A DNA stretch of 64,000 bases from Mycolicibacterium tokaiense (GTDB taxonomy: Bacteria > Actinomycetota > Actinomycetes > Mycobacteriales > Mycobacteriaceae): contig NZ_AP022600.1 in NCBI RefSeq assembly GCF_010725885.1, positions 1,550,001 to 1,614,000 on the forward strand. Direction: 5' to 3'. The translations under genes and the position numbers were made by a program. Positions 23,494 to 35,048 of this stretch are shown here, in pieces. The notes below the pieces were generated by a model, which was not told the DNA's origin, did not search any database, and saw only the letters and a program-made list of their open reading frames with translations. Positions within the stretch are counted from its first letter, which is position 1; the number at the start of each line of letters is the position of its first letter.

Positions 23494-25254
23494 GTGCGGG
23501 TGAAGCGGCCCGCCCCACCGATCACCTTGCTCACCGACCCGTTCCTGCAGCGGCCGCACCCGGATGTCACCGAAGTGGCGTGGTTCACCGAGTTCGGCGG
23601 CGGTACACACCACGTGATCGTCGGCGAACCGGTGGCAGCGATGTCGGCGGAGCAGGTACACCGGCTCATCGCAGGCGAGTCTGCCCCGGGCGTGCGGGTG
23701 GTCAGCGCCCACACCACCACGTTGTCGCGGGTCGCCGAGGACGCTGAGTCGCGGTTGCCGCCGGGCCGCAGACCGGCGCAGGGCATCGTCGCCAGAGCTG
23801 TCCATCGGCATCACGCCCTGATCGACGTACCCGCAGGCGTCCGAACCCCGTACCGCGTGGCCAGTGTGACCGGTGCGGCAATCGCCGTTTCCGACAGCTT
23901 CACCGTCCGCGGGCCGCTCCGGCCCGGCGAGCCCGCGGTGATCATGCTGACCTCCGACCACCAGCTGACCGTCAACACCGCGGCCAACCTGCACTTCGCC
24001 GCCGCCACCATCACCTCGCACCTCGGCGCCATCGATGCGGTCTTCGCCGCAGGCGACCTGGTGAACGTGCCTGACCGGGCGTCGGAGTGGTTCGACGATG
24101 ACAGCGGCTCGGGCTTCTTTCCCACGATGCAGGCGCGGGGCGCCCGCACCGGCACCGACGGAAGGGTCTACCGCGGCGGTCAGATCCTCCAGCACGCGCC
24201 CATCTATCCGGCGATCGGTAACCACGACGTGCAGGGCCGACGCGCTGGACACAGCACCTTGGCCGCGTCGTTCAGCAATCCCGTCCCCCGCGCTGTGGCC
24301 GAGGCCGAGTACCACCGCAACGCCGCAGCGATCAATCCGGGTGATGACCCGGGTGTCAAAGCCTCGTGGATCGAGGACAACTCGTTCTCCACCACCACGT
24401 TCCAGGAGATCTTCTCGTTGCCCGGCGGCAGGCCCTACTACGCCACCACCGTGGGCGACGTCCGGCTCATCGTGCTGTTCGCCACCCGGGCCTGGCGCGG
24501 TGAAGGTGCCGATCCGGATCCGGCCATGCGCACCGCCACCACGCGATACCAGGATTGCCGTACTTCTGTGGACGATCCACTGGAGCGCGGACACGGTGCG
24601 CTTCTCTTCGAGGATCTCGGTGTCGGTTCACGCCAATATGATTGGTTACGAGAGGAGTTGGAGTCCCCGGCTTTCCGCGCCGCCCGGTACACCGTGGTCA
24701 TGCTGCACGAGGGCCCGCACAGTCTGGGCGAGAACGCCACGCCGCCGTTCGCGCACCCGCTGCGTACCGAAGACCGTGACGCCCGCGGGACGGTGGTCGG
24801 ATATCGCTATGACTACCCGGCTGCCGAGGACATCCTGCTGCATGACGTAGCGCCTCTGCTCGAAGCCGCGGGAGTGGACCTCGTGCTCAACGGCCACAAC
24901 CACCTGTGGAACCGATTTGTCTCTCCCACGGGTGTCAACTACCTCGAGGGGTCGAACACCGGCAACAGCTTCGGCGCCTTCGACCCCGCATCGGGCAGGC
25001 AGCGCCGGGTACCTCCAGCGCCCTGGAACCCCGAGAACTATTGCGTGCACGGTGATCCCGGCGGCCTCCGGCCTGCACTGCCGACCACGGCACCCGTCAC
25101 CGACACCCTGGGCCGACCGCTGCCCTTCATCGCCGACGACAATCTCGTGGTGTTCCAGGCGCTGGACACCGGAACCGGCACGGTCACCAGTTGGTATGTC
25201 GACATGGCGGACCCGCACGGCTCGGCGGTCATGTTCGACGTACTCCAACTCTGA
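23494..25254 (+). CDS. Metallophosphoesterase family protein
   Basis: 586 aa. The middle and C-terminal parts contain calcineurin-like phosphoesterase signatures: LTSDHQLT (in place of the canonical D-x-H), VFAAGDLVNVPDRASEWFDD with the GD motif, AIGNHDVQGR with GNHD, the metal His in VVMLHEGPH, and LVLNGHNHLWNR with GHxH. The N-terminal ~200 residues form an Ig-like/fibronectin-type lead domain as in purple-acid-phosphatase relatives. There is no signal peptide, so it is probably cytoplasmic. GTG 23494 or GTG 23500 may be the start. Substrate unknown; it stands alone 32 bp after the gjpA terminator and just before the phosphonate operon. Confidence 0.83.
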   Translation: MRVKRPAPPITLLTDPFLQRPHPDVTEVAWFTEFGGGTHHVIVGEPVAAMSAEQVHRLIAGESAPGVRVVSAHTTTLSRVAEDAESRLPPGRRPAQGIVARAVHRHHALIDVPAGVRTPYRVASVTGAAIAVSDSFTVRGPLRPGEPAVIMLTSDHQLTVNTAANLHFAAATITSHLGAIDAVFAAGDLVNVPDRASEWFDDDSGSGFFPTMQARGARTGTDGRVYRGGQILQHAPIYPAIGNHDVQGRRAGHSTLAASFSNPVPRAVAEAEYHRNAAAINPGDDPGVKASWIEDNSFSTTTFQEIFSLPGGRPYYATTVGDVRLIVLFATRAWRGEGADPDPAMRTATTRYQDCRTSVDDPLERGHGALLFEDLGVGSRQYDWLREELESPAFRAARYTVVMLHEGPHSLGENATPPFAHPLRTEDRDARGTVVGYRYDYPAAEDILLHDVAPLLEAAGVDLVLNGHNHLWNRFVSPTGVNYLEGSNTGNSFGAFDPASGRQRRVPPAPWNPENYCVHGDPGGLRPALPTTAPVTDTLGRPLPFIADDNLVVFQALDTGTGTVTSWYVDMADPHGSAVMFDVLQL

Positions 25255-25321
25255 GATATTCGCGTCCCTCCGTTCCTCCGTCCGTCCGCGATACGTTGCG
25301 CCGTCCGACAGACCCCGTTAA

Positions 25322-25368
25322 CCGGCAGTTAGAACTACTTATCTAGACATGTAGACACCAACTGCCGG
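25322..25368. promoter_or_regulatory. Inverted repeat enclosing a candidate PhnF operator upstream of phnD
   Basis: CCGGCAGTT (25322-25330) and AACTGCCGG (25360-25368) are exact 9-bp complements. Between them lie two near-matches to the GntR/HutC core GTnTAnAC: ATCTAGAC at 25341-25348 and TGTAGACA at 25350-25357. The site lies 24-70 bp before the phnD start, where the GntR regulator encoded in the same operon would be expected to bind. Confidence 0.45.
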
Positions 25369-25391
25369 AGAGCAACAGAACGGGAAATCCA

Positions 25392-26282
25392 ATGTTCGGA
25401 CACAGATTCAGCGCAGGCGCTGTCGTAGCACTGTCCGCGGCGATGCTCGCTGTCGGCTGCAGCAGTGCGCCCACCGACGAGGAACAGGCCGGCACCGTCC
25501 GCTTTGCCGTCACGGATCTGCAGGGTCTCGAGGAACTGCAACGCGAATTCGGCGCATTCCAGGGAGCGCTGGAAGAGTACTCCGGACTCGACATCGAGTT
25601 CGTCGCAGTGAACGACCGCACCGCTGCCGCGGCCGCCCTGGGTGCCGACCGGGTGGATGTCGTGTTCACCGGGCCCGCCGAATACGTCGTCATCCACGAA
25701 CGCACCGGGGCTGAGCCCATCGTCGCCATCGACCGTGACAACTACCGCTCCTGCATCTACACCCGCGCCGACAGCGACATCACCAGTCTCGACCAACTGC
25801 GCGGCAAGAAAGTCGCCATGACCGACGTCGGTTCCACCAGCGGTCATCTCGGCCCCTCGCAGCTCCTGATGGACGCGGGCCTGCAACCGACCGCCGACGT
25901 CGAGATCCTCACCGTCGGTGACGCCGTGCACCAGGCGCTCAAGCGGGGCGATGTCGACGCTGCCGGCGTCGGATGCCATGACTATGACGAGGCCATGGCC
26001 ACCGACGACGCCACCCAGTTCCGGGTGATCGAGCGCGGCGAGAACCTGCCGCCGGATCTGCTGGTCGGCCGTCAAGGCCTCGACCCACAGACCTCGGCTG
26101 CACTCAAAACTGCCTTTCAGGAACACTTTCCGGAGCTGCTGACCGCAATGTTGGAAGGCAAGGACAACGCCAAGTTCGCCGGCGCGGAACTCGTCGAAGT
26201 AACCGACCGGGATTACGACCGTGTTCGGTCCATGTACCAAGCGGTCGGCGTCAACGACTTCTCCCAGTTCCTGGGGAACTGA
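25392..26282 (+). CDS. phnD: Phosphonate ABC transporter substrate-binding lipoprotein PhnD
   Basis: 296 aa. Signal sequence with the lipobox LAVGC (Cys ~23), then the family pattern: VRFAVTDLQGLEELQREF, DVVFTGPAEYVV, KVAMTDVGSTSGHLGP (phosphonate-binding S/T-rich loop) and HQALKRGDVDAAGVGCHDYD. Captures phosphonates (or phosphate/phosphite) at the outer face for PhnCE. First gene of the phn operon, preceded by a likely PhnF operator. The overall pattern fits the PhnD family rather than the PstS family. Confidence 0.9.
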   Translation: MFGHRFSAGAVVALSAAMLAVGCSSAPTDEEQAGTVRFAVTDLQGLEELQREFGAFQGALEEYSGLDIEFVAVNDRTAAAAALGADRVDVVFTGPAEYVVIHERTGAEPIVAIDRDNYRSCIYTRADSDITSLDQLRGKKVAMTDVGSTSGHLGPSQLLMDAGLQPTADVEILTVGDAVHQALKRGDVDAAGVGCHDYDEAMATDDATQFRVIERGENLPPDLLVGRQGLDPQTSAALKTAFQEHFPELLTAMLEGKDNAKFAGAELVEVTDRDYDRVRSMYQAVGVNDFSQFLGN

Positions 26283-26283
26283 G

Positions 26284-27087
26284 GTGGTCACGTCCTCCCG
26301 CCTGCCGGGTCTCAACCCTGCCCGCACCGCCGCCGACATGGCAATCGAGGTCCGGGATCTCCGGATGCGCTTCCGACGAGGCAACGCAGACGTCCTCGCG
26401 GGGGTCGATCTCCGGATCGGGCACGGCGAGACGGTGGCTCTGATCGGAACCAACGGTGCGGGCAAGTCCACTCTGTTGCGCTGCCTGGTTCGGTTGATCG
26501 AACCCACCAGCGGCACAGTGGCTCTGGCCGGGACGGACGTGACCGCCGCGCCGAAGCGTGCGTTGCGGGGCATCCGGCGCGACGTCGGCTTCGTCTTCCA
26601 GCGCTTCCACCTCATTCCTCGTCTCACGGTGTTCCACAACGTCGTCCACGGCGCCATGGGGCGGCACGGCACCCGCTGCGCCTGGCCGCTGACCAGCCCG
26701 GCCGACGTGCGTCGCGAGGCCATGGAGAGCCTGGAGCAAGTGGGCCTGGCCGGGATGGCCGGCCAGCGGGTCGACACCTTGTCGGGGGGCCAACAGCAGC
26801 GCGTGGCGATCGCTCGGATGCTGATGCAGCGACCGACGCTGATCCTGGCTGATGAACCGGTGGCCAGCCTGGACCCGGCCTCGGCGACCACGGTCATGGA
26901 GCTGCTGTCCTCGATCGCCGCCGAACGCAACGTCACTGTGGTGATGGCCCTACACCAGATGGATCTGGCCCTGCGCTACGCCAGCCGAGTGGTCGGGTTA
27001 CGCGGCGGCACAGTCGAGTTCGATCAACTATCCGCGGACTGCGATGCAGCGCAGTTGGCTCCGGTCTTCGCCGGCGGTGTCTCATGA
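26284..27087 (+). CDS. phnC: Phosphonate ABC transporter ATP-binding protein PhnC
   Basis: 267 aa. Walker A GTNGAGKST (residues ~57-65), Q-loop FVFQRFHLIPRLTVFHNV typical of PhnC, signature LSGGQQQRVAIARML, Walker B LILADEPVASLDP and H-loop MALHQMDLA. The GTG at 26284, 1 bp after the phnD stop, is used; an ATG at 26338 would also leave the ABC domain complete. It overlaps phnE by 4 bp. It hydrolyses ATP for phosphonate import with PhnD and PhnE. Confidence 0.92.
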   Translation: MVTSSRLPGLNPARTAADMAIEVRDLRMRFRRGNADVLAGVDLRIGHGETVALIGTNGAGKSTLLRCLVRLIEPTSGTVALAGTDVTAAPKRALRGIRRDVGFVFQRFHLIPRLTVFHNVVHGAMGRHGTRCAWPLTSPADVRREAMESLEQVGLAGMAGQRVDTLSGGQQQRVAIARMLMQRPTLILADEPVASLDPASATTVMELLSSIAAERNVTVVMALHQMDLALRYASRVVGLRGGTVEFDQLSADCDAAQLAPVFAGGVS

Positions 27088-27917
27088 GCCGCGCCACGAT
27101 GCCGCCACCGGGCGACACCACGGTGTCACCACCGCGGTTACGGCGGCCCAGCCTGTTCTCGCTGGTGATCGTGCTCGTGGTCGGCGGCCTGCTCGTTCAC
27201 GGCTGGACCCAGGGCGCCGCCTTGCATCCCGACTCACTGGCCTCCGGTGTGTTCCGCCTCGGCGACTTCCTGTCCGACGCAGTTCCCCCCGACACCCACC
27301 GGCTGGGCCCCATCCTCAAGGCGCTGCTCGTGACTGTGGAGATGGCGTTGCTCGGGACCGTCGTCGGGGTGATCCTGAGCGTACCGCTGGCTGTACTCGC
27401 CGCGCGCAACACCTCACCGCACTGGTCGCTGTATGCGCTGAGCCGGGGCATCATCACCGTCAGCAGGACCATCCCCGACCTGGTGTGGGGTCTGATCTTC
27501 GTGATCGCGGTGGGACTCGGGCCCGAGGCGGGTGTGCTGGCGATCGCGGTGGACGTGATGGGTTTCTGCGGCCGATTCTTCGCCGAGAGCATCGAGGACA
27601 TCGACCCCGGGCGCATCGAAGGCCTGCACGCGCTGGGGGCACCCCGCTTCGGAGTGCTCGCCGGCGGCGTCCTTCCCGCCTGCACACCGTCCTTCGTCAC
27701 CACATCGATGTTCGCCCTGGAATCCTCCGCACGATCCTCGGTGGTCCTCGGACTGGTCGGCGCCGGCGGCATCGGCATTGAACTGGCGACCTCGATGACG
27801 TTGCTGCGCTATGACGAAGCCGCCACCATCATCCTGGCGATCCTTGTCGTTGTGGTGGCATTCGAGAGGGCCGCTGCGGCGATACGTCGGCGCGTCCTGG
27901 GAAGTGACGGACGGTGA
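27084..27917 (+). CDS. phnE: Phosphonate ABC transporter permease PhnE
   Basis: 277 aa. About six hydrophobic segments; contains the binding-protein-dependent transport coupling pattern in GRIEGLHALGAPRFGVLAGGVLP (as EGLHALGAPRFGVL) and the PhnE-typical RTIPDLVWGLIFV and VLGLVGAGGIGIEL. ATGA overlap with phnC; GTGA overlap with the following regulator. Only one permease gene is present; PhnE works as a homodimer. Confidence 0.92.
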   Translation: MSRATMPPPGDTTVSPPRLRRPSLFSLVIVLVVGGLLVHGWTQGAALHPDSLASGVFRLGDFLSDAVPPDTHRLGPILKALLVTVEMALLGTVVGVILSVPLAVLAARNTSPHWSLYALSRGIITVSRTIPDLVWGLIFVIAVGLGPEAGVLAIAVDVMGFCGRFFAESIEDIDPGRIEGLHALGAPRFGVLAGGVLPACTPSFVTTSMFALESSARSSVVLGLVGAGGIGIELATSMTLLRYDEAATIILAILVVVVAFERAAAAIRRRVLGSDGR

Positions 27918-28651
27918 TCAGCAACCATCAGGACATGATCAACAGGTACGCGGGGCAGCCGCTCTACCGCCAACTGAGCGACGTATTGGAAACCCGCCTC
28001 ACCCGGCAGGCCAAGCCCGGCGACAAGCTGCCCAGCGAAGCCGAACTGTCCCGGGAGTTCGATGTCAACCGCCTCACGGTGCGGCGGGCACTCGACGAAC
28101 TCAATCAGCGTGGCCTCATTGAAACCGTCCGTGGTAAGGGCTCTTTCGTCGCCACGCCCAGGATGCGGTACGACATGTCGGCCGGCAGCGACGCAAGCTT
28201 CACCCGCAACATGCGCGAGCTCGGGCACCGGGTGGACATCACCGTTCTGTCCACCGGCATCGTCGAGACGTCCGAGCGTAGCGACGCGCTCCAGACCGCG
28301 CAGCCCCTGTTCGTGTGCCGGACACTGCGGCTCGTCGACGGCGAGCCGTGGTCGATGTCGATGACTTCGGTGCCCACCGAACGGTTCCCGCAGTTGGCCC
28401 AGCAGTGGGCCGGGGACACTTCACTGTTCGACCATCTGCTCGACCATTACGGAGTACGGATGCGCCGGGCACCACGCACCTTTGCGGCCAGCCTGGCCGA
28501 ACCCGAGGAAGCCGAACACCTCCGGATCAGGGTCGGGGCAGCAATTCTGGAGATGCGCGGCCTGAACATCGACCAGGACGGCAGCCCGGTGGCCGCAGTG
28601 CAACACCGCTTCCGCGGCGACCAGGTCCAATTTACGGTGGATCTCGGATGA
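27914..28651 (+). CDS. phnF: GntR/HutC-family regulator PhnF
   Basis: 245 aa. N-terminal winged helix (YRQLSDVLETRLTRQAKPGDKLPSE region with EAELSREFDVNRLTVRRALDELNQRGLIE as the recognition part) and a C-terminal UTRA effector domain (FTRNMRELGHRVD through FRGDQVQFTVDL). It is the phosphonate-pathway repressor by family and position. GTG 27914 overlaps phnE; an internal ATG at 27935 is a possible start. Placement between transport and lyase genes, with a candidate operator before phnD, implies control of the whole operon including itself. Confidence 0.88.
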   Translation: MISNHQDMINRYAGQPLYRQLSDVLETRLTRQAKPGDKLPSEAELSREFDVNRLTVRRALDELNQRGLIETVRGKGSFVATPRMRYDMSAGSDASFTRNMRELGHRVDITVLSTGIVETSERSDALQTAQPLFVCRTLRLVDGEPWSMSMTSVPTERFPQLAQQWAGDTSLFDHLLDHYGVRMRRAPRTFAASLAEPEEAEHLRIRVGAAILEMRGLNIDQDGSPVAAVQHRFRGDQVQFTVDLG

Positions 28652-29064
28652 GTCCCGAAGAACGCATGGAGGCACTGAGTTTCGCCGACCCGCAGACGCT
28701 GGAACAGCTGGCCGACGACATCCTGGCCACGGCCGTGCCGGTGGCGGTGATCACCGGGCCGGAATCGGTCACCGCCGCGGTTCGGGTGCCCATCCCGGGG
28801 ACGGACGACGCCACCACCGTGCTGGGCCACGTGGCCCTGACCCGCTGCACCGTCGAACTGGCAGGTACCCGCGGCGACGGCATTCGAACCGGCTATGACC
28901 CGGCGGTGGCCGCCGCCGCCGCGATCTGTGACGCGGAGTACGAACGCGACGGACCGCACCGCGAGCAGGTCGAACAACTGTGCCGCGATGCTGTGCACGA
29001 GCGGGCCGTGCGGGCACGCAGGCGTGCCGACCTGGTGTCGTCGACCCGATTGGAGCAGTCATGA
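28648..29064 (+). CDS. phnG: Phosphonate C-P lyase core subunit PhnG
   Basis: 138 aa, similar to the ~150 aa of other PhnG proteins. Recognised by the order in the operon and the motif LGHVALTRCTVELAGTRGDGI-like segment (RCTVELAGTRGDGIRTGYDP), followed by AAAAAICDAEYE. PhnG is part of the PhnGHIJ core complex and works with PhnI and PhnH in making alpha-D-ribose 1-methylphosphonate 5-triphosphate from the phosphonate and ATP. ATG overlaps the phnF stop by 4 bp; its own stop overlaps phnH by 4 bp. Confidence 0.9.
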   Translation: MSPEERMEALSFADPQTLEQLADDILATAVPVAVITGPESVTAAVRVPIPGTDDATTVLGHVALTRCTVELAGTRGDGIRTGYDPAVAAAAAICDAEYERDGPHREQVEQLCRDAVHERAVRARRRADLVSSTRLEQS

Positions 29065-29624
29065 CGTGGGACCCGGTGCACGACAGCAGAAGCACCTTCC
29101 TTGCCTGCATGCACGCGCTGTGCTCACCGGGGACACCGTTCGAGCTTCCTCAGACACCCGACATGACCGACCGGCCCGAACTCGACCGCGCCGCAGCGGT
29201 TCTGCTCGCCCTGCTCGACCGAGGCCTGGGACTTGCCATTCACGGCGGCGACGCGGCCGCACAGGTGGCTGCCGCAGCGCGCACCGCCACCGGGGCCGAC
29301 TCGACCGACCTGGGTGCCGCCGACTGGGTTCTGGTAGATGGCCCGCCGGCCCCCGCCATCGTGCACGCACGGCGTGGCACCCCTACCAATCCCGAGAGCA
29401 GCGCGACGCTGGTGATCGCCTCGACCGGGCCGACCCGACCAGTGCGCTTGGCCGGTCCGGGATTACGCGAGCCGGTGACGCATCGAATTCCGCTGGACGA
29501 GCTGGCACAGCAGGCGCTGGTGGTGGCGAATCAAAACCCTCCGATGGGGCTCGACATCTTCATCGTCACCCCGGACTGTCTGATCGGGCTTCCCCGCAGC
29601 GTCAGCCTCCAGGCGGTGGCGTGA
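29061..29624 (+). CDS. phnH: Phosphonate C-P lyase core subunit PhnH
   Basis: 187 aa. Family features: FLACMHALCSPGTPFELP near the N-terminus, then the pattern LGAADWVLVDG, GTPTNPESSATLVI, LAGPGLREPV and PMGLDIFIV. It belongs to the core nucleosidase complex with PhnG and PhnI. The start ATG at 29061 sits in an ATGA overlap with phnG; the end overlaps phnI by 1 bp (TGATG). Confidence 0.92.
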   Translation: MTWDPVHDSRSTFLACMHALCSPGTPFELPQTPDMTDRPELDRAAAVLLALLDRGLGLAIHGGDAAAQVAAAARTATGADSTDLGAADWVLVDGPPAPAIVHARRGTPTNPESSATLVIASTGPTRPVRLAGPGLREPVTHRIPLDELAQQALVVANQNPPMGLDIFIVTPDCLIGLPRSVSLQAVA

Positions 29625-30652
29625 TGTATGCCAGCATGCACGAGAACCCCGCGCTGGACGCCGCCCGCGCCATCGCGCGCTCCTCACGCCGTGGCAACGA
29701 GGTCAACACCGCCATGCTGGAGGAACAGATCTGCGCCGAGGCCGGGCTGTGGGAGCCGGCCGCCGCGCGGCGAGCGCTCGACCAGTCGCACGGCGACCCG
29801 TCACACGCGGTCTCCATGTTGCGGGTCTGGGCGGCCGCCCAACCACATGTCGACACCCTGACCATACAATCCACCGATACGGTGCTGACCCGCCGGCTGT
29901 CGTCGGCCTATCCGCAGATTCCAGGCGGTCAGTGGCTGGGCTTCGCACCGGAACTGACCACCCGCCAGCTGGATTGGACAACTCACAACGACACGGGTGA
30001 GGCCCCGCCGGCTCCCGCGCACCCGACACCGGGGACGCCTGATCCGGCCACCGAGGACGCCCCCCGGCGCGCCGACACCGTACGGGTACGAGACCTCATC
30101 CAGGGAGCACCCACCAAGTCGGCTCCGGCAGACGGGCCCGGTGACGACCCCGCTCGCTCCGTTTTGGTGGCGCCGCACACCAGACCCAACCGGCTGGCCA
30201 TGCTGGCCCGCGGCGAAACCGGCGCTCTGGTGTCGCTGGCCGCCATGATCCTGGGCCGCCGGCAAGAGGCGGTGCTGGTGGAACTCAGCGTGGCCACCGT
30301 GAGCCTGCGAATCCCTCACCCTCGCAGCGGTATTGCGGTAGCCGTGGGAGAAGTGCCTATCACCGAGGTCGAGGTGGTGCTGGATGCTGACGTCGACGGG
30401 CGGCCCGGTCTTGCCCTCGGGTGGGGCGCCACGCTGGGCACTGTCGAGCGTCGCGCCATCGCGCTGGCGCTGCTGGACGCGGCCATGCTGGCCGACGGCG
30501 AGCTTGCCGAACCACTGCTGCTCGACGAGCAGACCGTCATCGCCGCCACCGACGGCCCCGCCACCATCGGGTTCGTCGAGCACCTCCGCCTCCCCCACTA
30601 CGCAGGATTCACCGCCTATCTCGCCCAAGCAGCCGCCAAGGAGCCACGATGA
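29624..30652 (+). CDS. phnI: Phosphonate C-P lyase core subunit PhnI
   Basis: 342 aa, close to the 354 aa of the E. coli protein. Typical elements: AIARSSRRGNEVNTAMLEEQI near residue 20, ARSVLVAPHTRPNRLAMLARGETGALVSLA-like core (RLARGE and GAL), and a C-terminal FVEHLRLPHYAGFTAYLA segment. A Pro/Ala-rich insertion near residues 125-150 is not typical. PhnI is the nucleosidase that attaches the phosphonate to ribose of ATP. Start in TGATG with phnH; it overlaps phnJ by 4 bp. Confidence 0.92.
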   Translation: MYASMHENPALDAARAIARSSRRGNEVNTAMLEEQICAEAGLWEPAAARRALDQSHGDPSHAVSMLRVWAAAQPHVDTLTIQSTDTVLTRRLSSAYPQIPGGQWLGFAPELTTRQLDWTTHNDTGEAPPAPAHPTPGTPDPATEDAPRRADTVRVRDLIQGAPTKSAPADGPGDDPARSVLVAPHTRPNRLAMLARGETGALVSLAAMILGRRQEAVLVELSVATVSLRIPHPRSGIAVAVGEVPITEVEVVLDADVDGRPGLALGWGATLGTVERRAIALALLDAAMLADGELAEPLLLDEQTVIAATDGPATIGFVEHLRLPHYAGFTAYLAQAAAKEPR

Positions 30653-31527
30653 CGTCCCCACCTGTGACGGTGGCCTCGCTGGCCGCACAGCACGCCCGTC
30701 GGGAGGCCTACGCCTATCTCGACGAGGACACCAAACGCAATGTGCGGCGGGCGATCCTGAAGGCGTTGGCGATCCCCGGCTGGCAGGTGCCGTTTGCCTC
30801 CCGCGAGATGCCGGTGGCGCGCGGCTGGGGTAGCGGCGGTCTGCAGGTGACCCTGTCAGTGGTCGGGCCCACCGATACCGTCAAGGTGATCGATCAGGGC
30901 GATGACATGTCGGTCAACGCGGTCAGCATGCGCACTTTGATCAGTACATCCGCACAGTGCCAGGCCACCACCAGCACCGCCGCGGCGACCATCATCCAGA
31001 GTCGGCACCGCATCCCCGAGATCGAACTCAGGGCCGACCAACTCCTGGTACTCCAGGTGCCCCACCCCGAGCCGCTGCGGCGGGTGGTGTCCGACGACAT
31101 CGCGGCCCTGGCGCGCCACGCCGAAGGCGATTACACGCCGGCCTGGCTGGATCTCTACGACGCCCAAGCCCGACTCGGCGGCCCGCGCACCGGCGCCGAC
31201 CATCCCGTCCTGGTCGACGGCGCCCGCCTGATGAGCCCGAGCCCGATCCCGCGCCACGACGTCCTGCGGCTCGACCGGCGGCCACATCCCATCCTGCTCG
31301 GCGCCGGCCGGCGGGCCCGGCTGACGGCATTGCCGCCCTACACCCCGGTGGTACCACTGGCTTTCGATGACGTCGCCTTGGAGCCGGAGGCGGCCGGCGG
31401 CCCCTGTCGGCGCTGTGACAGCACGACGTCCTACCGGGTGCCCACCGACGGACCAGGAGCCACCCTGGTGTGGTGCTGCAGTGACGAGGACGCCTGCCGG
31501 AGCCGTCGTGAGGAGACCGCGCCATGA
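30649..31527 (+). CDS. phnJ: Carbon-phosphorus lyase PhnJ
   Basis: 292 aa radical-SAM enzyme that cleaves the C-P bond of alpha-D-ribose 1-methylphosphonate 5-phosphate, releasing the alkane and a cyclic phosphate. The N-terminus AYLDEDTKRNVRRAILKALAIPGWQVPFASREMP-like region (e.g. RRAILKALAIPGWQVPFASR) and QGDDMSVNAVSMR are family hallmarks. The C-terminal cysteines C253, C256, C277 and C283 form a C-x2-C-x20-C-x5-C motif, one residue shorter in the middle than E. coli (C-x2-C-x21-C-x5-C); an extra C276 is adjacent to C277. All required cysteines are present, so it should be active. ATGA overlap with phnK. Confidence 0.95.
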   Translation: MTSPPVTVASLAAQHARREAYAYLDEDTKRNVRRAILKALAIPGWQVPFASREMPVARGWGSGGLQVTLSVVGPTDTVKVIDQGDDMSVNAVSMRTLISTSAQCQATTSTAAATIIQSRHRIPEIELRADQLLVLQVPHPEPLRRVVSDDIAALARHAEGDYTPAWLDLYDAQARLGGPRTGADHPVLVDGARLMSPSPIPRHDVLRLDRRPHPILLGAGRRARLTALPPYTPVVPLAFDDVALEPEAAGGPCRRCDSTTSYRVPTDGPGATLVWCCSDEDACRSRREETAP

Positions 31528-32387
31528 CCGCAACCACCACGATGGCGGCCGCCCTGCAGCCACCGGCGGCGGTGGTCTCCGTCAGCGGCGTATCTCACCG
31601 CTTCGGAGCGGGGTGCGAGCGCTGCATCGAGCTGACCGGGGAGGAGGCCGGCACCAATCGATGCCGCAACTGCGGTGCCGTCGTGGCCGTGCACCAGGCC
31701 TCGTTCGAGATCGGCCCGCATGAGGTCCTCGGTGTGGTCGGCGAGTCGGGATCGGGCAAGACGACTCTGCTCCGGTGCCTCAACCTCGACCTCACCCCCG
31801 AGGCCGGTTCCATGGCGGTCGCCGGACACGGCGACCTGTTCGGCCGGGCCGGTCATACCGCAGCGCTGAAGCGATCGACGGTGGTGATGGTGCACCAGAA
31901 CGCGCTGGCGGCGGGCCTCTACCCGCGGTTGGGGGCCGCCTCCAATGTCGCCGAGCGGCTACTCGGTGGCGGTGCGCGCCACTTCGCCGACACCCAAGCG
32001 CAGGCCGGAGAACTGCTCGGCGAGCTGGGGTTGCGACCGGAACGGCACAACGATGCCCTGATGACCTTCTCCGGCGGCATGCAGCAACGTGTACAACTCG
32101 CGCGCGCTCTCGTGGACCCGCCGCAACTGTTGTTGCTGGACGAGCCGACCACCGGACTCGACCCATCCGTACAAGCTGACCTGCTCGAAGCCGTTGCGCG
32201 GGTGGCTGATTCACTGGGTTCGGCGACCATCGTGGTCTCCCACGATCTGGCAGCGGTGCGCATCCTCGCCTCACGTGTGCTCGTGCTGCACCACGGGCGC
32301 ATCGTCGAGCAGGGCATCACCGAGCAAGTGCTCGAAGATCCCCAGCATCCCTACACCCGACTTCTCGTGTCTTCGAGGCTGACATGA
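31524..32387 (+). CDS. phnK: C-P lyase ABC subunit PhnK with four-cysteine insertion
   Basis: 287 aa. Intact ATPase: Walker A GESGSGKTT (~73-81), Q-loop VMVHQNALAAG, signature FSGGMQQRVQLARAL, Walker B LLLLDEPTTGLDPSVQ, H-loop VVSHDLAAVR. Between the first strand and Walker A (residues 31-50) there is an insertion with CERC and CRNCG, a zinc-knuckle-like pair absent from the E. coli protein as I recall it. PhnK binds as a dimer to the PhnGHIJ core and couples ATP hydrolysis to opening of the lyase site. ATGA overlaps on both sides. Confidence 0.92.
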   Translation: MTATTTMAAALQPPAAVVSVSGVSHRFGAGCERCIELTGEEAGTNRCRNCGAVVAVHQASFEIGPHEVLGVVGESGSGKTTLLRCLNLDLTPEAGSMAVAGHGDLFGRAGHTAALKRSTVVMVHQNALAAGLYPRLGAASNVAERLLGGGARHFADTQAQAGELLGELGLRPERHNDALMTFSGGMQQRVQLARALVDPPQLLLLDEPTTGLDPSVQADLLEAVARVADSLGSATIVVSHDLAAVRILASRVLVLHHGRIVEQGITEQVLEDPQHPYTRLLVSSRLT

Positions 32388-33058
32388 CCACTACCGTCGC
32401 GACGACGACCATCACGGCGGCCGGGCTGTCCAAGCGTTTCGACAACGGCGCCGACGTCCTACGCGGCGCGGTACTGAACGCGGCAGGTGGTCAGCTCACG
32501 CTGATCCGCGGGGCCGCCGGCTCGGGCCGCACCACCCTGACCCGCTGCCTGACCGGGGTCTACCGGCCGGACGCCGGCGAGGTGACGCTCCGCCTCGGCG
32601 ACCGCGGCGAGGCGGACCTCACCGGGGCGGACCCCCGCGCGGTGGCGTGGCTGCGCGCCCACCACATCGCCACCTTCGACGGCCCTTTGGCCACCGCCCC
32701 CACCCTGCCGGCCCAGGCTGCAGTCGCCCGGGCAGCGCGCTGCAGTTCCGAGATCGCCGCGGCCGGGCTGGCCCGTCTCGATGCCGCTGAGGTGGCGCTG
32801 ACACCACTGGGTCGGTTGCGTTCGCCCCAACGCCATCTGGTGGCGCTGACAGCCGCCCTGCTCGCCGACCGAGCCTTCATGGTTCTCGACAGACCCGACG
32901 AGTACGCCCCACACCGGGCCCTTGCCACCTGGCTGCTCGAAGCAACCACCGCCGGCGCGGCGGTCATCGTGACCGCCGCGGCCGACAGCCCACTCGCGTC
33001 GATCGCCTCAGCGGTCGGCGAACTCAGACAAGGAGAAATAACATGGCAGACAGTGTGA
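32384..33058 (+). CDS. phnL: Degenerate C-P lyase ABC subunit PhnL (ATPase motifs lost)
   Basis: 224 aa; position and length match PhnL (226 aa in E. coli) and the fold is ABC-like, but none of the ATPase motifs is intact. Walker A reads GAAGSGRT (residues 43-50) with Arg49 in place of the essential Lys; the signature is RLRSPQR instead of LSGGQ; Walker B is FMVLDRPD with Arg replacing the catalytic Glu; the H-loop reads VTAAAD without His. The reading frame is intact and phnM follows with a 16-bp overlap. It may be a structural pseudo-ATPase pairing with PhnK. ATG overlaps phnK by 4 bp. Confidence 0.82.
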   Translation: MTTTVATTTITAAGLSKRFDNGADVLRGAVLNAAGGQLTLIRGAAGSGRTTLTRCLTGVYRPDAGEVTLRLGDRGEADLTGADPRAVAWLRAHHIATFDGPLATAPTLPAQAAVARAARCSSEIAAAGLARLDAAEVALTPLGRLRSPQRHLVALTAALLADRAFMVLDRPDEYAPHRALATWLLEATTAGAAVIVTAAADSPLASIASAVGELRQGEITWQTV

Positions 33059-34248
33059 TCGAGGGCGTCACCGTCGTTCCCGGCGGCGGGCGCGAAGCAA
33101 TTCCGAATGCGATCGTGACGCTCGACGCACACGGCCGCGTCGAGGACATCACGCCGGACGCGGCTGCCGGGGACGACCTCTACCTCGTGCCCGGCGCGGT
33201 AGACCTGCACCTGGACAACCTGCTGCAGCGCCGCCGCCCGCGAGCCACCGTGTCACTCGAGCACGCGGCGATCATCCCGGTGCTGGACGCAGAATGTGCA
33301 GCCGCCGGCATCAGCACCGTCTGCATCGCGGCCCGCTGCGAGGACTCTCCGCGCAAGGGCATCGCGATCGCCGATGCGGCCGTGCTGGCCGCGGTGCTGG
33401 AGGAGCTGGCGCCGATGCTGGCCTGTGACTGGCGGATTCACGCCCGGGTCGAGCTCACCGACGAGGGCGCCGTGGACGCGCTGCATGCCGTGCTCGCGGC
33501 GTCGTCGCGGGTGGCGTTGATCTCCATGATGGAGACCTCGGTGGCCCGCAGCAGGTTCTCGTCACTGGCCGAGACCCAGGCCTTCTACGCGCAGGACTGG
33601 GGAGTGTCCGAAGCCGAGGTCGCGCAGATCTTCACCGTCGACGCGCATCAGCTGAGCCGCATCGCCGAGCGTCGGCAGGCGGTGGCGGCACTCGCCGCGA
33701 GCCGCGGCATCGTGCTGGCCACGCATGACGACCGTACCGAGGAACACATCGACGAAGCGTTCGCGTTCGGGGCCCGGGTTGCCGAGTTCCCGCTGAGCAT
33801 GGCGGCGGCGCGCCGAGCGCACGAGCTCGGGATGGCAGTGGTGCTCGGTGCTCCCAACGCCCTGCGGGGCCGCTCGACGTCGACGGGCAACGTGCTTGCG
33901 GCAGAAGCCATCGAGGCCGGAGTGTGCGACGTGCTCTGCTCGGACTATCTGCCGATCGCAATGCATTCCGCACCGCACGTACTGGCCCGCGCTCACGGCG
34001 TGTCGCTGTCTCACGGGATCGATCTCGTGTCGACGAATCCGGCGAAGATACTGGGGTTGGTGTCGCCCACCATCGAGGTCGGCACCGTGCTCACCGCGTC
34101 CCTACGGCGGGTGCGACCGTTTCACACCGATTCTCCCGAGCGGCCGGCGCACGTGGGTACCGCGCTGTGGCGTGACGGGCGGCTGGTGTTCCGGCGCGCA
34201 GCGGTGGAGCCCCTTCCTGGGATGACAGCCGTGCCGGCGACAGCCTGA
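33043..34248 (+). CDS. phnM: Ribose 1-methylphosphonate 5-triphosphate diphosphatase PhnM
   Basis: 401 aa amidohydrolase-superfamily enzyme. It removes pyrophosphate from the PhnGHI product to give the PhnJ substrate. Motifs: LVPGAVDLHLDNL with the metal HxD pattern, HARVELTDEGAV, LATHDDRTEEHIDEAFAFG (read LATHDDRTEEHIDEAFAF), GAPNALRGRSTSTGN and LCSDYLPIAM with the catalytic Asp. ATG 33043 has a strong AAGGAG site and lies 16 bp inside the end of phnL. Last gene of the cluster; no phnN, phnO or phnP follows. Confidence 0.93.
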   Translation: MADSVIEGVTVVPGGGREAIPNAIVTLDAHGRVEDITPDAAAGDDLYLVPGAVDLHLDNLLQRRRPRATVSLEHAAIIPVLDAECAAAGISTVCIAARCEDSPRKGIAIADAAVLAAVLEELAPMLACDWRIHARVELTDEGAVDALHAVLAASSRVALISMMETSVARSRFSSLAETQAFYAQDWGVSEAEVAQIFTVDAHQLSRIAERRQAVAALAASRGIVLATHDDRTEEHIDEAFAFGARVAEFPLSMAAARRAHELGMAVVLGAPNALRGRSTSTGNVLAAEAIEAGVCDVLCSDYLPIAMHSAPHVLARAHGVSLSHGIDLVSTNPAKILGLVSPTIEVGTVLTASLRRVRPFHTDSPERPAHVGTALWRDGRLVFRRAAVEPLPGMTAVPATA

Positions 34249-34259
34249 CCGACCAGCAC

Positions 34260-34280
34260 GCCGGTCACCGGCTGACCGGC
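34260..34280 (+). terminator. Hairpin after phnM
   Basis: Perfect 8-bp stem GCCGGTCA / TGACCGGC with a 5-nt loop, 12 bp after the phnM stop and before the convergent TetR gene. No U-tract; may serve both strands. Confidence 0.5.
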
Positions 34281-34302
34281 CCAGGACTCCGGGCCCGGCG
34301 CT

Positions 34303-34902
34303 TCACCTCGTGCGCCGCAGGATGCCCTCAGCGGCGGTGCGGAGCGTCTGTAATTCGAAGGGGAGCCGTTCACGGTCCCCCGGGAGCGCACGCTCGAAGG
34401 ACAGCCCGTTGACCACCGTGCTCAGAAACCGCGCCTGCGCGTCGAGATCGCCCGGAGCCAGCGCGCCCTCGTCGCGCAGGAGCCCGAGCCATCGCGCGAT
34501 GCGGTGCACCGCAAGGCGTTCGAGCGCGAGGAAAGAATGGGTGGCATCCGCCGATGGCGTTGCTGCGACGTAGGTGTCGTGAAGGGAGCGCCAGTGCTCC
34601 CGGGCCCGCTCGCCGGTACCCACCTGTGACAGCAGCAACTGAAGGCAGGCCACGAGACGCTCGCCGGGATCGCCGGTGGTGTCCTGCATCGGATCGTCGG
34701 GCAGGTCCAAGTCGTAGATTCCGGCGATCACGGTGTCGACCAAGGCCCGCTGGGTCGGGAAGAAGTGGCGAAGCGAGCCGACGCTGACCCCGGCGCGCGC
34801 AGCGACTGCGCGCACACTCAGCCGAGAGGTCGGATCCTCACCGAGCATCGTCGCAGCGGCGATCAGGATCTTGTCGCGAGTGCTCTGCCTCGTCACGCCC
34901 AT
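34303..34902 (-). CDS. TetR-family repressor (BetI-like), divergent from CPBP protease
   Basis: 199 aa. N-terminal DNA-binding domain TRDKILIAAATMLGED..., recognition helix VSVGSLRHFFPTQRAL (residues ~39-54). The C-terminal half is the helical BetI-type domain (HWRSLHDTYVAA, then FLSTVVNGLSFERAL). Between it and the divergent CPBP gene lie two palindromic sites with CTAGCAC/GTGCTAG-type arms, one close to its own start. The recognition helix is nearly identical to that of the TetR at 62534, and the operators match. Confidence 0.88.
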   Translation of the reverse strand: MGVTRQSTRDKILIAAATMLGEDPTSRLSVRAVAARAGVSVGSLRHFFPTQRALVDTVIAGIYDLDLPDDPMQDTTGDPGERLVACLQLLLSQVGTGERAREHWRSLHDTYVAATPSADATHSFLALERLAVHRIARWLGLLRDEGALAPGDLDAQARFLSTVVNGLSFERALPGDRERLPFELQTLRTAAEGILRRTR

Positions 34903-34926
34903 CGGGACGGCACCTCCTCCTCCGCT

Positions 34927-34943
34927 CTAGCACACTGTGCTAG
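34927..34943. promoter_or_regulatory. TetR operator, proximal copy
   Basis: Arms CTAGCAC and GTGCTAG with a 3-bp spacer, 25 bp upstream of the TetR ATG. Same arms as the operator at 63124-63145. Confidence 0.8.
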
Positions 34944-34959
34944 TTTCAACCCCGATCCA

Positions 34960-34976
34960 CTAGTACAGCGTGCTAA
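34960..34976. promoter_or_regulatory. TetR operator, distal imperfect copy
   Basis: Reads CTAGTAC-AGC-GTGCTAA, two mismatches from the proximal copy; centre distance 33 bp. Lies on the CPBP side of the intergenic region. Confidence 0.55.
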
Positions 34977-35048
34977 TCCAGGCGGATCCGCATCTGCGTC
35001 AGCGCTGGGCGCCGGCGGCCACCCGTCGAGATTATCGAGGAGCAGACG

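Follow-up and report, generated by a model that had tools for sequence, protein, structure and literature searches.

Why a carbon–phosphorus (C-P) lyase needs two kinds of ATP-binding cassette (ABC) module is an open question, and a phn operon of Mycolicibacterium tokaiense bears on it. The operon lies in a stretch of 64,000 nucleotides (the window; contig NZ_AP022600.1, positions 1,550,001 to 1,614,000 of the forward strand, from a genome of 6.33 Mb in one contig). The genome also contains three matches to the PPE family above the Pfam cut-off, as fits a mycobacterial host, for which PPE proteins are typical. Its gene in the phnL position (32384..33058; positions are those of the window and all features are on the plus strand) encodes a protein in which residues of the ABC ATPase motifs are replaced. 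In Escherichia coli the catalytic Glu of PhnK and that of PhnL are both required for growth on phosphonate, and the PhnL variant E175Q abolishes this growth and reduces ATPase activity (PMC9947105). Can a C-P lyase work with a PhnL that is no ATPase? Operons like that of the window are called type c in this report. Type c is probably a C-P lyase lineage in which PhnL is a pseudo-ATPase, a probable clamp, and PhnK is the sole ATPase.

The phnL open reading frame (ORF) codes for 224 amino acids and contains no internal stop, in agreement with the initial annotation, which had described it as intact. Structure prediction gives an ABC fold (mean predicted local distance difference test score, pLDDT, 86.7). 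The Walker A motif (32510..32533) is degenerate and reads GAAGSGRT, with Arg49 in place of Lys. Where the signature LSGGQ is expected, residues 143–150 (32810..32833) read GRLRSPQR. Walker B ends in VLDR, Asp169-Arg170 replacing Asp-Glu, and the H-loop His is absent, the sequence at this position being VTAAAD. All four departures had been read by the initial annotation and are indeed seen. Additionally, the Q-loop Gln is missing, with no Gln in that stretch of the alignment. The claim that all ATPase motifs are lost holds in the window for Lys, Gln, signature, Glu and His. It is too strong for the P-loop residues Gly41 and Gly46 and for the Walker B Asp174 (E. coli numbering), which are kept in all 15 readable type-c PhnLs.

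Of 396 genomes of the genus, 26 contain PhnJ (PF06007); overlapping draws gave 9 of 397 genomes from the order, 11 of 394 from the class and 14 of 356 from the phylum. Fifty-three operons were compared: 26 from the genus (the window and 25 others), 5, 8 and 12 from the order, class and phylum draws, respectively, that of E. coli K-12 and that of an Arthrobacter plasmid (L162, NZ_CP093327.1). The genus operons comprise 15 of type c, 10 with a PhnJ-PhnK fusion (type b) and one canonical operon. PhnL is readable in 51 of the 53 operons, namely in 14 type-c operons of the genus, on the Arthrobacter plasmid and in 36 others; L140 and L123 are without. In L140 (G717) phnK is interrupted by insertion-sequence-like genes, and phnL and phnM were not found in the stretch read.

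The Walker residues were mapped over these PhnLs, a check the initial annotation had proposed, and the motif loss proved common to type c and absent from the 36 others. None of the 15 type-c proteins has the Q-loop Gln, the H-loop His or the signature Ser, which is Arg in every one of them. The Q- and H-loop states are read from an alignment in register with E. coli PhnL; another alignment is shifted by about one residue there. Walker A carries Lys in nine and Arg in six, and the catalytic Glu is found in eight. Both Lys and Glu are absent in the window, L125, L126 and L130. Within type c the Lys has changed at least three times and the Glu at least four times, counts taken from a PhnK tree in which several forks are unresolved. 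For L124 the states were taken from separate alignments of the type-c rows. The 36 other PhnLs contain Lys, Gln, SGG and Asp-Glu without exception and the H-loop His in 35 cases, the remaining row being cut off. Such a pattern, 0/15 in type c against 36 other PhnLs nearly all intact, is not chance. In L125 a His is present a few residues off the H-loop position.

The shared loss of Q-loop Gln, signature and H-loop His in every readable type-c PhnL rules out strain-specific decay. The genus does contain 11 operons with an intact PhnL. These all belong to the other types (10 fusion, one canonical), none of them to type c.

ABC proteins need the signature, Q-loop and H-loop residues for a normal ATP sandwich and for hydrolysis. 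Since these are missing, a dimer of type-c PhnL would form no normal ATP sandwich, and judged by its residues the protein is very unlikely to hydrolyse ATP. It could still bind ATP as a slow or non-hydrolysing partner, for example in an asymmetric pair with PhnK like those of exporters with one degenerate site. The retained P-loop glycines and Walker B Asp, together with the Lys and Glu of some members, fit this idea, and degenerate sites of heterodimeric ABC proteins are well known. However, none of the 15 readable type-c PhnLs retains the signature residues that would act in trans or those of the Q- and H-loop, the window PhnL is without Lys and Glu as well, and E. coli PhnK sits on the core as a homodimer (PMC9947105). 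An ATP-binding partner of this kind is thus highly improbable.

The frame of phnL is kept, and selection on it was measured by the ratio of nonsynonymous to synonymous substitution rates (dN/dS). A comparison of phnL with phnK, also proposed by the initial annotation, gave 0.21–0.50 for phnL and 0.09–0.18 for phnK in ten pairs; the ratios of phnG, phnH and phnI from that set were set aside, as they may contain out-of-frame extensions of the ORFs. Over pairs with dS of 0.03–1.0, which are not independent of each other, the median dN/dS of phnL is 0.43 in type c (46 pairs) versus 0.135 in type b (30 pairs). When phnL and phnM are compared on the same pairs, the dN of phnL is 1.83 times that of phnM in type c (range 1.41–2.36, 26 pairs), as against 0.77 times in type b (0.57–1.30, 23 pairs). 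These ratios indicate that type-c phnL is relaxed after the motif loss yet still under purifying selection. The 14 intact genus copies, with an unbroken frame and dN/dS below 1, are no simple pseudogenes, and for the plasmid phnL, whose frame is intact too, pseudogene status appears unlikely.

The frame might also be kept chiefly as a translational bridge that ribosomes have to traverse on their way to phnM, with the protein itself doing little. At the junction of phnK with phnL, stop and start codon share bases (ATGA). A further overlap, of 16 bases, joins the 3' end of phnL to the start of phnM, and this 3' end (33030-33058) contains the phnM start codon along with a sequence resembling a ribosome-binding site. 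Both overlaps are present at the 15 type-c junctions examined and suggest that translation of phnK, phnL and phnM is coupled, as the initial annotation had stated. They would suit a bridge, as would the relaxation of phnL relative to phnM. Trp221 of PhnL, and probably Gly217 too, overlie the start codon and ribosome-binding-site-like sequence of phnM, so part of the C-terminal conservation of PhnL belongs to phnM. On the other hand, 37 of the 39 columns that are invariant in 14 type-c PhnLs (the start Met included) lie before Gly217, away from the overlap. Neither the common new Arg at the signature Ser, nor the dN/dS below 1 among the genus copies, nor the full ABC fold predicted with good confidence is expected of a mere bridge, which is therefore distinctly unlikely.

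PhnK (31524..32387) retains all ATPase motifs: GESGSGKT, the Q-loop Gln, SGGMQQR, DEPTTGLD and SHDL are present in all 15 type-c operons of the genus, and the Arthrobacter PhnK keeps the same set. In PhnJ the residues Gly32, Cys241, Cys244, Cys266, Cys272 and Tyr158 and an acid at position 149 are kept in 14/14 aligned type-c rows (the row of L130 is truncated). PhnI His328 and His333 are kept in 15/15 type-c rows. The Arthrobacter copy likewise shows the Cys motif of PhnJ and the His motif of PhnI. Residue roles follow PMC9947105. On the PhnK side of the contact with PhnJ, Arg116 is kept in 15/15 and Arg82 in 14/15 rows, while Tyr118 is mostly Phe. No second, intact PhnL above the cut-off was found elsewhere in the 15 type-c genomes (best match 133 bits). 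The type-c operon is argued to work because the core residues are intact across the genus and the same state of PhnL recurs on the Arthrobacter plasmid, which is typed as conjugative.

The contact of PhnL with PhnK in E. coli is made mainly by the C-terminal domain of PhnK and the β-hairpin of PhnL, with PhnL Arg82 stacking on PhnK Trp29 (PMC9947105). The same report puts forward that PhnL may stabilise the D-loop of PhnK and hold back phosphate release. Amstrup et al. 2023 propose that PhnL, beside its own ATPase, orders the C-terminal region and the D-loop of PhnK. A task of stabilising the D-loop or holding phosphate needs no hydrolysis by PhnL in itself. On the simplest reading of type c, only PhnK, as a homodimer docked on PhnJ, would bind and hydrolyse ATP. 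PhnL, whose gene remains interlocked with phnK and phnM, would fold as an ABC domain and most likely rest on PhnK, where, as a clamp without hydrolysis, it would order the C-terminal region and the D-loop. The half-cycle of PhnL would be missing, which would leave the timing of core opening and closure to PhnK by itself. The initial annotation had suggested a non-hydrolysing structural partner and a core run by PhnK; the improbable hydrolysis, the intact PhnK, the kept frame and the clade-wide state bear this out in part. The docking of PhnL, like its lack of ATP hydrolysis, its clamp role and an active operon, is a part of the reading that we infer.

PhnL Arg82 and Arg88 are kept in all 15 type-c proteins and the C-terminal stretch of PhnK is well kept in type c. 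The conserved Arg82 also bears on another non-ATPase job for PhnL, on the side of PhnG, PhnH and PhnI in the first step, where the phosphonate is linked to the ribose of ATP. The requirement for PhnL need not depend on its ATP hydrolysis, which would leave room for such a job. PhnL contacts PhnK in the solved E. coli complex (PMC9947105), however, and it is the Arg of this very contact that type c has retained; a role away from PhnK is rather unlikely.

The clamp on PhnK may have been refitted in type c. A zinc-ribbon-like insert of the pattern CxxC-N12-CxxC in PhnK (Cys31, Cys34, Cys47 and Cys50; 31614..31673) is invariant in 15/15 genus type-c PhnKs, is also present in L162 and sits shortly before the position of Trp29. 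Fusion-type PhnKs have an insert without Cys at the same site in 11 of 12 readable rows, and canonical rows are without an insert. A more specific version of the clamp reading can be offered only tentatively, as somewhat less than an even chance: the genus and the Arthrobacter plasmid would form a separate one-ATPase lineage, with PhnL as a fixed clamp marked by the new conserved Arg at the signature Ser and a docking rebuilt with the PhnK insert.

The descent of the operon was examined in trees. In a PhnJ tree of 51 rows, the 14 type-c rows lie on one side of a branch with a support of 100 in the Shimodaira–Hasegawa-like approximate likelihood ratio test (SH-aLRT), and the stem corresponds to about one change per column. 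This is a quick tree with midpoint root and a long-branch warning, from which the PhnJ of L130 was dropped. The long, fully supported stem makes the whole operon look like an old, divergent lineage. In the PhnL tree, type c forms one group (support 100) and the other PhnLs form another (96). Against other ABC domains, all 51 PhnL rows lie on one side of a branch with an SH-aLRT of 82, which is not decisive. Of 25 loci of other ABC proteins, 8 were skipped in these trees on account of their length or of stops, and L019 was omitted; the tree that gave the value of 82 is short of four more long rows. A profile-profile comparison of the two PhnL sets aligned 217 columns with 99.9% probability. When the type-c profile was compared with solved chains, E. 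coli PhnL (7z15_K) ranked first (3e-22), followed by EttA (5.5e-19).

Several findings weigh against the clamp and against the identity of its gene. An ATPase-free PhnL would be a real departure, because E. coli with the E175Q variant fails to grow on phosphonate. Conservation at the docking site is incomplete: the β-hairpin of PhnL is 2 to 8 residues shorter in 14/14 genus type-c copies (six in most), the hairpin His14 is gone in 15/15 type-c PhnLs and PhnK Trp29 is Gly in 15/15 genus type-c rows. Trp29 is a poor marker, since this position is also replaced in operons with intact PhnL (Ala in 12/12 readable type-b rows, Leu or Gln in L148 and L147). PhnL Arg82 occurs in 31/36 other PhnLs and is thus not universal. 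In the contact of PhnK with PhnJ, PhnK Arg78 is lost in type c; PhnJ Asp226 is missing from type c and equally from the canonical and fusion-type rows aligned. The share of phnM in the conserved C-terminus of PhnL counts here as well. In the type-c locus L123:4832-6239 (G355), the phnL match ends after about 30 codons, phnM is absent behind it and unrelated genes follow. This copy looks broken, by deletion or by misassembly of the draft (590 contigs). Finally, the window PhnL reaches 40.1 bits with the equivalog model TIGR02324, far below the cut-off of 256.3, and scores higher with a CcmA model (50.1 bits). Over 14 type-c members, two other ABC models give a better best E-value than TIGR02324. 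The intact fusion-type PhnL of G264 also falls under this cut-off (219 bits). The ABC motif set belonging to TIGR02324 (Walker A Lys, Q-loop, signature, Glu, H-loop) is complete in none of the readable type-c PhnLs. By its position and the weight of evidence, type-c PhnL is taken as a PhnL descendant and not as a member of TIGR02324.

The phnL position is occupied by a gene, with phnK before it and phnM after it, in 14 of the 15 type-c operons of the genus, G355 being the exception, and on the Arthrobacter plasmid. In a draw of 241 genomes of the family, with 12 candidates scored per genome, no match to type-c PhnL was found in the 30 other genera, and the two genomes that matched are both within the genus. 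A search of plasmids with type-c PhnL gave no match at E 1e-20; at E 1e-6 the matches were limited to the Arthrobacter record and a weak partial match in Azospirillum. The best match in a collection of genome contigs, from which close records may be excluded, has an E-value of 2e-11 and 28% identity, and such matches are therefore taken as remote ABC proteins.

In the window, phnDCE-type transporter genes (25392..27917) lie upstream of the other phn genes; their names rest on their translations and on a comparison with the gene order of the annotated Arthrobacter operon. The genes phnF, G, H, I, J, K and M were named by Pfam and NCBIfam profiles. The GntR-family regulator gene phnF (27914..28651) is followed by phnG (28315..29064), phnH (28980..29624), phnI (28895..30652) and phnJ (30421..31527), the true starts of these four lying inside the ORFs given. 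PhnI keeps its two His residues (E. coli numbering) and PhnJ the [4Fe-4S] cysteines and Gly32. Downstream of phnL, phnM occupies 33043..34248. The initial annotation had called the operon otherwise complete. This holds for the kinds phnDCE, F, G, H, I, J, K and M; PhnN and PhnP, on the other hand, gave no match above the family cut-offs in any of the 15 type-c genomes, the window genome (G000) included. Weaker matches to them are probably other enzymes. A large phosphatase-like ORF (23494-25254, named by eye) upstream of phnD is a candidate for the final steps without PhnN and PhnP. In the Arthrobacter plasmid operon an inositol monophosphatase-family gene follows phnM. Rfam models gave no match above gathering scores over positions 25000-35000 of the window.

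Compared with known systems, type-c PhnL resembles E. coli PhnL of the Phn(GHIJKL)2 complex (PDB 7z15 and 7z16; PMC9947105) in its position between phnK and phnM, its ABC fold (predicted for type c) and Arg82 and Arg88. The E. coli protein is an ATPase with a growth-essential catalytic Glu, whereas type-c PhnL has lost signature, Q-loop and H-loop and has a shorter hairpin. Operons with a PhnJ-PhnK fusion (L112-L121 and L137-L139, from the same genus, family and order) share the gene order of type c and, in 11 of 12, the place of the PhnK insert. They differ in that Lys, Gln, SGG, Asp-Glu and His of PhnL are present in 13/13 and the PhnK insert has no Cys. PhnJ and PhnK form a single fused ORF in L112-L120 and L137-L139, and the fusion of L121 looks frameshifted. 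Heterodimeric ABC exporters with degenerate nucleotide sites likewise hold a catalytically damaged subunit beside an intact partner. Each exporter heterodimer, however, has one good and one bad site, while in type c the whole second dimer, which is stacked in E. coli, seems to be without a site. A full-text literature search, judged on titles and the beginnings of abstracts and with subscription journals outside its coverage, found no published description of an ATPase-dead PhnL.

Type c looks like a natural one-ATPase C-P lyase with a putative pseudo-ATPase role for PhnL. It provides a ready comparison, with intact PhnK and core beside an ATPase-dead and constrained PhnL. If type-c operons work, the essential role of PhnL would not be ATP hydrolysis as such, its ATPase would be no universal need, and the cycle of two engines put forward for E. 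coli would not hold everywhere either. If PhnL is indeed a clamp on PhnK, its ATPase role and its structural role would have been separated in nature.
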